From Candidatus Cybelea sp. (GTDB lineage: Bacteria > Vulcanimicrobiota > Vulcanimicrobiia > Vulcanimicrobiales > Vulcanimicrobiaceae), in contig DASXFZ010000021.1 in the NCBI GenBank assembly GCA_036489315.1, positions 1 through 64,000 of the forward strand: a stretch of 64,000 bases of DNA, in the 5' to 3' direction. The position numbers were made by a program, and so were the translations under genes. Shown piece after piece: positions 8,608-15,600 of the stretch. Every line of letters starts with the position of its first letter. The first letter of the stretch is position 1. The notes beneath the pieces are model-generated. The model worked only from the letters and a program-made list of their open reading frames with translations. It was not told the DNA's origin and did no database searches.

Positions 8608-9975
8608 ATGACCGTTGCGCCGCTTCATTCGACGATCGATCGCATACCGCCGCACAATCTCGAGGCCGAGATGGCGTTGATCGGATCCGTACTCGTCGAC
8701 CGCGAGATGCTCGCCGCCGTCGGTGAGATCATCCGGCCGAACGACTTCTACGCGCACGTCCACGAAACGATCTTCATGGTGCTCGTCGAGCTCTACGAGC
8801 GAGGCGAACCCGTCGACAAAATTACCGTCGCCGAAGAGTTGAAGCGGCGCAACGTTCTCGAGCGAGTCGGCGGCGTCTCGTACATCAGCGGGCTGATGGA
8901 TACCGTGCAGACGGCTGCCTCGGCGCGCTATTACGCAACGATCGTGCGCGAGAAATCGGTGCTGCGCTCGCTGATCCACGCGGGCACCCAGATCACCGGG
9001 CTCGGCTACGAAGGCGAAGAAGACGTCGCGGGCGCGCTCGACCGTTCCGAGCAGCTCGTTTATACGATCGGCGAGCGCCGCGGCGTCACCGAATTCATGC
9101 CGGTCAGCCGCCTGATGAAGGGCGCCTTCGACCACATCGACCGGCTCTACCACATGCGCGGAGATCGGACCGGGCTCACCTCCGGTTTCCGCGATATCGA
9201 CGAGATGACGACCGGTTTCCAGCCCGGCAACTTCGTGATCGTTGCGGCCCGGCCGGGCATGGGGAAGAGCTCCTTCGCCCTCAACATGGCCGTCGCCGCC
9301 GCGCGGCAAGAAGGTGCGCCGGTCGCGTTCTTCTCACTCGAAATGTCGAACAACGAGCTGATTCAGCGCCTGATCTGTTCGGAAGCGCGCATCTCGATGA
9401 ACCATATGCGCCGCGGCAATATCAAAGACGGCCAGTGGGAGCTGATCTCAAACGCGATGGGTGCGATCAACGACCTGCCGATCTATCTCGACGATCTGGG
9501 CGCGCTCACCGTCAACGATGTGCGCAGCCGCTGCCGGCGTTTAAAGTCTACGGTCGGGCTGGGAGCCGTCTTCGTCGACTACCTGCAGCTGCTGCGGCCG
9601 GGCGTGCTTACGCGAAACGTCAATCGCAATGAGGAGCTCTCGGAGATCTGCCGCACGCTCAAGGTGACGGCCAAGGATCTCGAGGTGCCGATCATTGCGC
9701 TCGCGCAGCTCAATCGGGCAGTCGAAGCGCGCGCGGGAACGAAGCGGCCGCTGCTCTCGGATCTGCGCGATTCCGGCTCGATCGAACAGGAGGCCGACGT
9801 CGTAGCCTTCCTTTATCGCGACGGCTACTACAATCCCGAGACGGCGGAACCGGATCTGACCGAGTTCATCATCGCCAAGCATCGCAACGGCCCGACCGGC
9901 ACGGTCAACCTGCGCTTCCGTCCCGAGTTTACGCTCTTCTTGCCGTACGCCGACGAGTCGCACTACCCGAGTTAG
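8608..9975 (+). CDS. dnaB: replicative DNA helicase DnaB
   Basis: The 455-residue hexameric replication-fork helicase has an N-terminal collar (IPPHNLEAEMALIGSVL), Walker A ARPGMGKSS (214-222), the conserved FFSLEMS segment, the FVDYLQLL motif and the LSDLRDSGSIEQEADVV arginine-finger region. No intein or insertion is seen. The rpsR-rplI-(lon)-dnaB order is a common chromosomal arrangement. Confidence 0.97.
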   Translation: MTVAPLHSTIDRIPPHNLEAEMALIGSVLVDREMLAAVGEIIRPNDFYAHVHETIFMVLVELYERGEPVDKITVAEELKRRNVLERVGGVSYISGLMDTVQTAASARYYATIVREKSVLRSLIHAGTQITGLGYEGEEDVAGALDRSEQLVYTIGERRGVTEFMPVSRLMKGAFDHIDRLYHMRGDRTGLTSGFRDIDEMTTGFQPGNFVIVAARPGMGKSSFALNMAVAAARQEGAPVAFFSLEMSNNELIQRLICSEARISMNHMRRGNIKDGQWELISNAMGAINDLPIYLDDLGALTVNDVRSRCRRLKSTVGLGAVFVDYLQLLRPGVLTRNVNRNEELSEICRTLKVTAKDLEVPIIALAQLNRAVEARAGTKRPLLSDLRDSGSIEQEADVVAFLYRDGYYNPETAEPDLTEFIIAKHRNGPTGTVNLRFRPEFTLFLPYADESHYPS

Positions 9976-9979
9976 GGGG

Positions 9980-10137
9980 AAACGCGAGCGTCGCGCCGGT
10001 TACATTCCGACTCGGACACATTCGTCGGGCCACATCCGTGTGGCCCTCCTATCGTCTGCCTCGGGCCTTCCGCATCCGGCTGCGGCCCTCGGTCAGACGG
10101 TCCTCGTCAGAACGTAACCGGCCCGACGCTCGCGTTT
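9980..10137. repeat. 158-nt highly structured inverted-repeat element
   Basis: Arms 9980-10003 and 10114-10137 form a 24-bp inverted repeat with one mismatch. The 110-nt interior holds further hairpins: GGGCCACA-TCCG-TGTGGCCC; a long arm pairing GTCTG..CC..GGGCC with GGCCC..GG..CAGAC and capped by CCGCA-TCCGGC-TGCGG; GACG-GTCCT-CGTC; and CCGAC with GTCGG. It starts 4 bases after the dnaB stop. It may be a MITE-like element, a structured RNA, or an elaborate terminator/leader. No protein-coding frame is evident, and I see no target-site duplication. Confidence 0.8.
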
Positions 10138-10207: not shown

Positions 10208-10239
10208 GTTAACCATGGTTAGCGTTAACCATGGCTAAC
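10208..10239. promoter_or_regulatory. tandem palindromic operator at the mntR start
   Basis: Two adjacent 16-bp units, GTTAACCATGGTTAGC (10208-10223) and GTTAACCATGGCTAAC (10224-10239), are near-identical palindromes. The annotated ATG of the DtxR/MntR-type regulator lies inside the second unit. This fits an autorepression site for the regulator, which belongs to a family that binds palindromic operators. Confidence 0.7.
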
Positions 10240-10926
10240 AAGGGCAAGGTCGACCTCCTTACGGTCGGTTCCGATCGATCGCCGATGCGCGCTCGGGAAG
10301 ACTACGTCAAAGCGATCTACCAAATCGGCGGCGGCGCTCCGGTGCGCGCGGCGGCGGTCGCGCGGTATCTCGACGTCAGCCGCGTCTCGGTCAGCAAAGC
10401 GAAACGGGTCCTCGAGAGCGACGGCTTGATCGAACCTGCGCGCGCTCCCTCGGATCCGCTCGCGCTGACCCGGCGAGGCCGGGCGCTCGCAATTGCGATG
10501 GTGCGGCGCCACCGTTTGCTCGAGACGTTTTTGCATCGCTCGCTGCACGTTCCGCTCGAGCGCGTGCACGCCGAGGCGGAGCGCATCGAGCACGTGATCT
10601 CCGACGACGTCGCGCTGCGAATCGCCGACTTGCTGGGGCGCCCGGCTAGCGATCCACACGGCCACCCGATACCGTACGAAGACGCGTACGCTACGCGCGA
10701 GCCGCTGCCGACGCTGGCCGCACTTAGCGCTGGGGGCAGGGCGCGCATCGTCAGCCTCGACGACCGCGATGAAGAAGGCGTGAAGACGCTGGCCGCGGCC
10801 GGGCTTCTTCCCGGAACGGCCGTACGCGTCGTGGCCGCCGATGCGAAGCGGCTTCGTCTGCGCTGCGGAAAGCGCACGATCGCCCTGCAGCGGCGTCACG
10901 CCGAGATGGTGCGTATTGCAACGTAG
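10231..10926 (+). CDS. DtxR/MntR-family metal-dependent regulator
   Basis: The 231-residue cytosolic repressor has a DtxR winged helix (YVKAIYQIGG, AAAVARYLDVSRVSVSKAKRVLESDGLI), then the metal-binding and dimerisation helices (RHRLLETFLHRSL, ERVHAEAERIEHVISDDV). It ends in a FeoA/SH3-like domain. It is followed directly by an NRAMP transporter, so manganese or iron control of uptake is the likely job. The ATG at 10231 lies within the palindromic operator and lacks a clear ribosome-binding site. An ATG at 10285 would start just before the conserved helix and is a serious alternative. Confidence 0.88.
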   Translation: MANKGKVDLLTVGSDRSPMRAREDYVKAIYQIGGGAPVRAAAVARYLDVSRVSVSKAKRVLESDGLIEPARAPSDPLALTRRGRALAIAMVRRHRLLETFLHRSLHVPLERVHAEAERIEHVISDDVALRIADLLGRPASDPHGHPIPYEDAYATREPLPTLAALSAGGRARIVSLDDRDEEGVKTLAAAGLLPGTAVRVVAADAKRLRLRCGKRTIALQRRHAEMVRIAT

Positions 10927-13703: not shown

Positions 13704-13779
13704 GCCGACGTAGCTCAGTTGGTAGAGCAATTGTTTCGTAAACAATAGGTCGCCGGTTCGAGTCCGGCCGTCGGCTCCA
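13704..13779 (+). tRNA. tRNA-Thr (CGT), CCA encoded
   Basis: A complete cloverleaf: acceptor stem GCCGACG/CGTCGGC, D-arm GCTC..GAGC, anticodon stem ATTGT/ACAAT with loop TTCGTAA (anticodon CGT), and T-arm GCCGG-TTCGAGT-CCGGC. Discriminator T is followed by an encoded CCA at 13777-13779. Its 3' half is the integration site of the adjacent island. Confidence 0.97.
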
Positions 13780-13780
13780 G
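13730..13780 (+). repeat. attL: 51-bp core overlapping the tRNA-Thr 3' half
   Basis: This sequence begins ATTGTTTCGTAAACAATAGG and recurs at 24465-24515 with a single difference (G at 13760, A at 24495, in the T-loop). It covers the anticodon arm to the CCA end, so integration recreates an intact tRNA. The integrase stop lies 16 bases beyond. Confidence 0.93.
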
Positions 13781-13796
13781 TCTAAAAGGTCTTTAT

Positions 13797-15059
13797 TCAT
13801 AAGGCTTTTTTCTTTGTCCTCGCGCCCGTCTTAGAAGTCTTTCGGCGGGCAGTTGTCCCCCGTTTTGTCCCACGTCGATTCCGGACCATCGAGCCGATAA
13901 GGTCTGCCGCGGCGCGGCCTTCGGACGGTGCATGATGGCTGTAGACGTCGATCGTGGTCTTGCTGCTGGCGTGGCCGAGCAACGCCTGGAGCGTTTTTAA
14001 GGGCGTACCCGCTTGAGCGAGCTGTGTGGTCACCGTGTGACGCAATGAATGAAAATCCACAGGGGGCAGACCCGCTTCCTTGAGGAGCGGTCGAAGGACG
14101 CGCCTCAACAGGTTTGGGCCATCGATTGGCGTCCCGTTCTTCGACGCAAATACAAGGCCAAGATCGTTGGCACGCTGCCGCTTGAGGTGATCACGGAGCA
14201 GCTTAACCGCTTCTTTCGAAAGATCCACGCGACGACGAGACGTTGTGGTCTTGGGCTCGACCAACGCGAGCCCATTCTCGGTTCGAGCTAGGTTGTGGCG
14301 TACCAATAGGTAGCCGTCGTTCAAATGTAGATTACCGATGGTTAGCCCGAGTATTTCGCCTTCGCGCATGGCTGTAGTCGTTGCGAGGTAGACAAGCGGG
14401 AACCATTCCGAGGCTTTGGCGACGGTGAGGAGTTTGCGGAGTTCAGTGAGGTTTAGTGTCGGCTTCTCCGTCTTGGGTACGCGAGGGCCTTTCATGTCAG
14501 CAAGTGGGTTGCGTTCGAAATAACCCACCTCCACGGCGTAGCTGTAGCCTCGTCGCAGGGTAGCGAAGGCGAGCTGCTTCGATCGTGCGCCGACCTTTAG
14601 GCCGTCAAGCCATGCGGCTACGTTAGCAGGCTTTAAAGTGGCGAGGCGCGCACGGCCTATCTCCGGCACAATGTACTCCTTGACCGCTGTCTTGTACGTC
14701 GAAAGAGTATTGTACTTGAGACGTGACTTCATATCGGTGAGGAAGCGGTTCTCGAAGAAGTCCTCGATCGTGACGTTCTTTGCGTTCGCCTGTGCCGGAG
14801 CGGCGAGCAACGCTTTAACCTTGTGTCGGAGCCCGGCCGCGGTTTTGTCATAGACACTCTTGCGAACCTGTACGCCTTTCAAGTTTTCAACCCAACCGCG
14901 CCACCTCTGATACGTGTTGCCCTTGCGCGTTACCGTGTCGTAGGTGCCACTGCCTGGAACCCTGCCGTACTTGTCCTCGACGCTTACCGTGGGATTCCAC
15001 GCAGGGCCTGCGACGGAAACTGACGTGCCGATCTTGCGCTTCCTCGGTCGTGATCGCAT
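13797..15059 (-). CDS. int: tyrosine-recombinase integrase of the island
   Basis: The site-specific integrase has 420 residues from the ATG at 15059 (an earlier TTG at 15149 is possible). It has an Arm/SAM-like N-terminal core-binding region (TIEDFFENRF, YNTLSTYKTAVKEYI) and a catalytic domain with Arg in TAMREGEIL, the HSLRHT box, the LGHASSKTT box and the nucleophile Tyr in IDVYSHH. All catalytic residues are visible, so it is probably active. The C-terminus is very basic. Position next to attL and the tRNA fits integration into tRNA-Thr. Confidence 0.95.
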   Translation of the reverse strand: MRSRPRKRKIGTSVSVAGPAWNPTVSVEDKYGRVPGSGTYDTVTRKGNTYQRWRGWVENLKGVQVRKSVYDKTAAGLRHKVKALLAAPAQANAKNVTIEDFFENRFLTDMKSRLKYNTLSTYKTAVKEYIVPEIGRARLATLKPANVAAWLDGLKVGARSKQLAFATLRRGYSYAVEVGYFERNPLADMKGPRVPKTEKPTLNLTELRKLLTVAKASEWFPLVYLATTTAMREGEILGLTIGNLHLNDGYLLVRHNLARTENGLALVEPKTTTSRRRVDLSKEAVKLLRDHLKRQRANDLGLVFASKNGTPIDGPNLLRRVLRPLLKEAGLPPVDFHSLRHTVTTQLAQAGTPLKTLQALLGHASSKTTIDVYSHHAPSEGRAAADLIGSMVRNRRGTKRGTTARRKTSKTGARTKKKAL

Positions 15060-15600
15060 TTGAGCCGTCCGCTTCGTCGACGAGAGTCGATCGCCTTCGT
15101 CGTCGCTCGTAAGAGCGAGCGCACTTGCGGCTTTCACTCCGCATAGCACAAATGGAGAGTCAGGTACTTTGCACTTGAGCGCGGATACTTCAAAAACGGA
15201 CCGATGAAGAGCGGTGCTGAATAACGAGTTTTTTCGGTGGAGTCTAGGTTAGACGAAGGTCGCGTTCGACGTGCCGATATGCCACGTGTACACTGGGCCA
15301 GACACAAAGCAAGGGCGTTGGTTACGGGCGCGTTCCCGAATCCGAAGTCACTCTCACCAGAGAGGATGCGCGGGTCGATTTTCGACGCTAGGTTGGGCGA
15401 GGACTCGCGAGGAGTGGCACGGTGTGGCTCGCGTCGTCCTAAGATTGTAGTGCCACGCCCAGGTTCAAATCGAGACAAAGTCGCGCGCTTGGAGGCCCTG
15501 ATGCAGCGATGTGATTGAGAACGCGCGCGCGAGGGGCCGTACATCACCCGGAATGCAACCGTCCCAAGATCCTTCGGCGCCTAAGCTACGGTGATTCTTC
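15060..15600. other. intergenic region of the island, no convincing gene
   Basis: This is the upstream region of the integrase, about 540 bases to the iteron-like array. A 93-codon frame (15237-15518, plus) and others occur but show no signal, motif or good ribosome-binding site. Integrase promoter and possible attP arm-type sites are expected here. Confidence 0.4.

Follow-up and report, generated by a model that had tools for sequence, protein, structure and literature searches.

A dispersed palindromic element of Eremiobacterota with a covarying core of GGA-loop hairpins and site-specific outer stems

ERIC and other large palindromic repeats are imperfect palindromes of more than 100 nt that lie between genes in many copies, and the arms of ERIC are conserved family sequence. 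Stem-loop families have been surveyed (PMC2267715), and REPINs and REP elements, mobilised by RAYT transposases (PMC3116915), are short, intergenic, hairpin-forming, dispersed and non-coding. The decoy RNAs CsrB/CsrC and RsmX/Y/Z carry several hairpins with ANGGA or CAGGA loops in each RNA (PMC7366521). Template switching during replication has been reported to generate RNA hairpins, with new well-paired stems, by inverse copying of adjacent DNA (PMC8794818). The dispersed palindrome and the CsrA decoy RNA are both familiar; a mobile core of GGA hairpins closed by a site-specific stem is not described in the literature that we searched, and our searches found no description of the repeats reported here.

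The window (the whole stretch of 64,000 nt that was analysed) contains a nested-hairpin element between dnaB and an mntR-like gene. Its parts and neighbours are as follows.

9980–10137, minus strand: whole element, read as RNA on the GGA strand (fold z-score and covariance-model match)
9989–10128, minus strand: covariance-model match (E = 4e-36; the window copy belongs to the model's training set)
9980–10010, minus strand: 3′ outer arm, adjoining the dnaB stop codon; its outer part is unique to the window locus
10107–10137, minus strand: 5′ outer arm, pairing with 9980–10010 (arm alignment, inverted-repeat search)
10011–10106, minus strand: conserved 96-nt core, common to all copies
10063–10088, minus strand: inner hairpin 1, apical loop with GGAU (fold; pairs kept with compensatory change across genera)
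10046–10053, minus strand: conserved linker GAUAGGAG with a third exposed GGA, near-invariant in the alignment of close copies
10027–10046, minus strand: inner hairpin 2, loop region ACACGGAUGU at 10032–10041
8608–9975, plus strand: neighbouring dnaB (Pfam DnaB_C, 7e-98), stop codon 4 nt from the element's outer end
10231–10926, plus strand: neighbouring mntR-like metalloregulator, outside the element (Pfam Fe_dep_repr_C, FeoA)

An earlier note on this DNA had reported a 24-bp inverted repeat with one mismatch enclosing several hairpins, and our analysis bears this out: 9980–10003 and 10114–10137 form that repeat. At 87% pairing the arms can be lengthened to 38 nt, leaving an 82-nt spacer, and no other inverted repeat confined to 300 nt in the 64-kb window is as long. 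In the arm alignment, 28 of 31 positions of 9980–10010 agree with the opposite arm read in reverse complement. The RNA fold of the minus strand has −115.5 kcal/mol (z = −11.0; none of 200 shuffles was as good), compared with −96.8 kcal/mol (z = −7.0) for the plus strand, and the window element is far beyond chance. The two TCCG-loop hairpins noted earlier are present on the plus strand, but the better RNA strand is the minus strand, where these loops read CGGA and GGAU and which is antisense to both dnaB and mntR. A promoter search on both strands at the window element found none, and Rfam gave it no match at gathering score; weak scores for MIR1858 and Plant_SRP were rejected as chance matches.

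Both searches that the note had suggested, for dispersed copies and for covarying homologues in relatives, were productive. Sequence searches of the assembly gave about 12 copies in this genome, with 11 strong matches besides the window copy (86–94% identical over the matched part). The covariance search found members in 35 of the bacterial family's 99 genomes and in 14 of its 38 genera, at 1–17 copies per genome; four weak matches of the model fell outside the bacterial family. Queried against 60 relatives, the core matched eight, namely seven congeners and, weakly, one further genome in the class. Core identity was 88–100% in most copies of this genome and its congeners. Three cores of this genome (C12 and the ends of contigs C13 and C50) were 100% identical to the query over 96 nt, and the two contig ends are probably one locus at which the assembly broke at the repeat. 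Full cores detected by a 19-base pattern over GTDB genomes were confined to Candidatus Eremiobacterota assemblies, and outside the phylum the pattern gave chance matches only across about 85,000 genomes plus viral contigs. The dispersed copies are intergenic and lie beside unrelated genes. We consider it very probable that Eremiobacterota carry a mobile structured RNA element in multiple copies and that the window holds one of them.

A remnant of the element was seen between rpsD and rpoA in genome G002 (L282); the deletion fits slippage between two direct GGCGAGGAC repeats in the copy of genome G011 (L026), and the remnant shows how copies may be lost. Six loci (L226, L241, L243, L255, L262 and L267) hold two copies each, in divergent orientation and about 38–90 nt apart, with no convergent pair; the spacers might hold bidirectional promoters.

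Compared with REPs, which have conserved stems, the element is larger, bears two GGA hairpins and has a site-unique outer stem. Short conserved palindromes between genes are the REPIN trait; our element is dispersed and intergenic, and its outer arms are unconserved in sequence. A search for a transposase partner, which covered the Y1_Tnp/RAYT type (PF01797), found none in the 18 genus genomes, with control genomes positive, and on this ground a REP/RAYT identity was rejected. ERIC shares the imperfect, multi-copy intergenic palindrome of more than 100 nt, whereas in our element only the core is conserved and the outer arms vary by site. The suggestion of a new MITE family holds in part: the copies are dispersed and non-coding with inverted-repeat ends, as in MITEs, but these ends differ between copies instead of sharing a terminal sequence, and at L031 and L023 the flank is duplicated in inverse orientation rather than as a direct target-site duplication.

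A second dispersed palindromic family (L188–L217; for example, G000:C29:16116–16181) has a core GTTGTCGCCGCGGGCCTCGATTACCATAGTAAACGTCGGCCCGCGGCTCC and semi-conserved, covarying arms near GGAAGCCCTGATTTAGCCCAGCTC; it occurs in 13 of the 18 congeners, frequently at the 3′ ends of genes, and has no GGA loops. Unrelated repeats of the GTGTCATCCTGAGCG...GAAGGACGA type were seen at L281, where they are arrayed, L290 and L101, one of them within the hairpin region of an element copy (L101/L045).

Among 20 close copies, 25 of 47 pairs showed change on both sides, and 90.2% of cells were paired, compared with 75.6% in shuffles and 26–42% in slid controls. Compensatory change of this kind reached 45 of 47 pairs among 34 matched sequences, mostly from other genera, in an alignment that was fitted to the covariance model and therefore leans towards it. 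In 71 of 72 copies the GGA strand (minus in the window) folded more stably than its complement. Mismatches in the arms within copies were of G·U type 122 times and of A·C type 36 times (P = 4e-12; 47 to 7 when counted by copies); because the outer arms are site-specific, the G·U-biased changes came after insertion. The simplest reading of this bias is selection on the folded GGA strand, and strand-biased mutation as its source would also need the GGA strand to be special. The mismatch test fits RNA and single-stranded DNA alike, and single-stranded DNA folding likewise favours the minus strand.

The loops of the fold stay while their closing stems vary between copies. Apical loops contained GGA in 114 of 145 cases; the share was 23% in dinucleotide-shuffled sequences, and on the complementary strand not one of 174 loops had it. 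About one loop in six has GA without GGA, one G having been lost. The usual form is C-A-N-GGA-N-G or C-A-GGA-N-G, and at least one CA(N)GGANG motif occurs in 65 of 72 copies (two or more in 32 of 72), at 1.36 per element versus 0.054 per 140 nt of background, although the copies are homologous and the motif counts are thus not independent events. CsrA favours hairpins with GGA in the apical loop (PMC7366521), and the consensus of RsmE is (A/U)CANGGANG(U/A) (PMC6849547); the loop of window hairpin 2, ACACGGAUGU, fits this RsmE/CsrA consensus exactly. The genome itself encodes a CsrA with L4, R6 and the equivalent of R44, residues needed for RNA binding (the conserved arginine is taken from PMC7366521). 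Like CsrB and RsmZ, the element has several hairpins with GGA apical loops, and csrA is present in the genome of the window; it differs in its many dispersed copies, its long outer stem and the lack of a known GacA-type control, and its binding by CsrA is a prediction.

It also differs from these decoys in occurring in two genomes without detectable csrA: in genus g10 (G026 and G077, 97% and 90% complete), elements with GGA loops are present and csrA was not detected. Across the bacterial family, csrA occurs in 29 of 35 genomes with the element and 52 of 64 without it, which is no difference. Given these counts, the g10 genomes, the loops lacking a G, the antisense orientation of the GGA strand to both neighbours in the window and the negative promoter search, we regard CsrA as a possible reader of the loops, somewhat short of an even bet, and a selfish element as the main rival. 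Of the structured regulatory RNA proposed at first sight, the covarying structure stands, while a regulatory role through CsrA stays a prediction with evidence against it.

On that rival account, a selfish MITE-like element would need one strand to fold, whether as RNA or as single-stranded DNA, only for its own copying, with a mobilising enzyme recognising the GGA loops and no gain to the host. Its dispersed, polymorphic distribution at variable copy number, its occurrence in g10 and the preference of single-stranded DNA folding for the minus strand all fit. The G·U-over-A·C bias in site-unique arms arose after insertion, however, which suggests selection acting on resident copies; pairing persists in diverged copies from other genera; and none of the 18 genus genomes has a Y1/RAYT enzyme. 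We judge a purely selfish element unlikely, though it is the best placed of the alternatives. The note took many dispersed copies to favour a MITE over a riboregulator; in this family dispersal goes together with strong RNA-level constraint.

Complete copies in this genome and close congeners have the core closed by an inverted repeat of about 23–43 bp. The outer part of the arms is unrelated between copies in most cases, and the innermost 6–7 bp are semi-conserved (YTTCSRA). At C12 and C13/C50, cores that are 100% identical carry unrelated arms, which point mutation of a common arm cannot explain. Ready-made palindromes were also considered. In 463 kb of this genome, five inverted repeats scored at least 17 with arms within about 220 nt; three are element copies and, of the two others, one (L119) is a diverged family member. 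Such palindromes are too rare to be the general source of arms, and pre-existing 30-bp palindromes as a general target were rejected, long short-loop hairpins being absent from the 463 kb.

The origin of the arms could be followed at four sites comparable with congeners. At tkt in G009, the element separates GCAAGAAGTAGCCG from CTAAGG, and its outer right arm is an inverse copy of the left flank, GCAAGAAGTAGCCG; the same site is empty and without a hairpin in G003 and G014. At the L023 site, G014 (flanks 93–95% identical to G009) is empty and without an inverse copy, and its sequence GACCAGTCTCG corresponds in position and spacing to the outer right arm of G009; the right arm in G009 matches this ancestral GACCAGTCTCG, whose inverse copy forms the left arm. 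In these two clean cases an outer arm thus derives from ancestral flanking DNA by inverted copying. At the S41-protease site, the outer stem of the filled G014 site is homologous to a plain terminator hairpin in G003, and at the TTFNF site many congeners have a stem formed by a conserved coding end and its inverse copy, with differing nested elements in the loop. Shorter terminator stems are thus real landing sites at these two loci, and since the hairpins already exist in relatives, inverse copying is not the sole origin of arms. Taken together, the four sites indicate that the element lands in terminator loops or in sites that turn into palindromes when it lands. The arms are probably in part inverse copies of flanking DNA, which replication template switching may have produced; unlike in the hairpins of PMC8794818, such inverse copies are seen here at several sites, each time beside a mobile core that the sites share.

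These landing sites also bear on a second rival, in which the element is a bidirectional transcription terminator or 3′-end stabiliser and the nested core is passive padding in a terminator loop. The terminator hairpins conserved in relatives at the S41 and TTFNF sites are in its favour. So is stop-codon placement: at least 27 of 72 copies have a convergent stop codon some 30 nt or less from the right end, and about 11 have one as close to the left end, a polarity count of lower quality because automatic ORF calling is noisy in GC-rich DNA. Yet the GGA strand has no T-tract after the stem and that of the other strand is weak; conserved core loops alongside variable stems are left unexplained; and in three congeners GGA-type elements lie inside an operon, between rpsD and rpoA, with the GGA strand sense. 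We consider this account improbable, more so than a selfish element.

A long mntR/mntH leader, acting as a metal-responsive riboswitch, was another early suggestion, prompted by the location upstream of mntR; a Nramp/mntH gene comes next after the mntR-like gene. Of the congeners, at least nine retain dnaB and mntR in this order, separated by a short gap that lacks such an element, and G007 alone has a different, related element in the gap (L177, recognised by the covariance model). A conserved mntR leader is ruled out by these element-free gaps, in which mntR and its palindromic operator persist; with family copies beside unrelated genes and no Rfam match, we give a riboswitch very little credence. 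A chance or dead element, for which the truncated copies (L012/L018, L039) could speak, is ruled out for practical purposes by the fold z of −11, the covariation and homologues in 14 genera.

Three further observations lie outside the element. At 10208–10238, a near-palindromic repeat TTAACCATGGTTAGCGTTAACCATGGCTAAC overlaps the mntR start codon and is strongly conserved in congeners; it is probably the autoregulatory operator of the metal repressor. In G005 (C131:78807–79762), the dnaB match is split into two segments by some 560 additional bases, possibly an intein. At 13704–15149 of the window, a tRNA gene adjoins a phage-type integrase gene on the opposite strand, which suggests an integrated element at the tRNA.

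The reading that we favour is a mobile structured RNA. Its conserved core folds into two GGA-loop hairpins closed by the long outer stem and has spread to many intergenic sites, often directly after a stop codon; the outer stem keeps its pairing although its DNA differs from site to site, and the fold is far better preserved on one strand than on the other. New copies would come to lie in, or make, a terminator-like palindrome, and in some cases 11–16 nt of flanking DNA would be copied inverted on the other side, most simply by template switching during replication. Transcripts of the GGA strand would come from adjacent genes or from a start of its own, and the loops may bind CsrA, so that dispersed copies would jointly serve as decoys for CsrA or provide it with sites on 3′ ends. 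Taken as a whole and with CsrA, or an equivalent protein that binds GGA, as reader, this chain is tentative, a little under evens; the fuller version, in which the element spreads CsrA-binding modules to gene ends across the family and builds its stem by inverted flank copying, is speculative and, as a whole, doubtful. To our knowledge, no Csr decoy RNA has been described for the phylum Eremiobacterota. The family joins strong RNA-level covariation, CsrA-type loops and mobility; dispersed repeats and decoy RNAs are normally separate subjects. Its arms suggest that a long, well-paired stem can form from local sequence in one step, a point of relevance to the long-standing question of the origin of long RNA stems. 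If CsrA reads the loops, the copy number of a repeat could itself tune a global regulator in an uncultured phylum.
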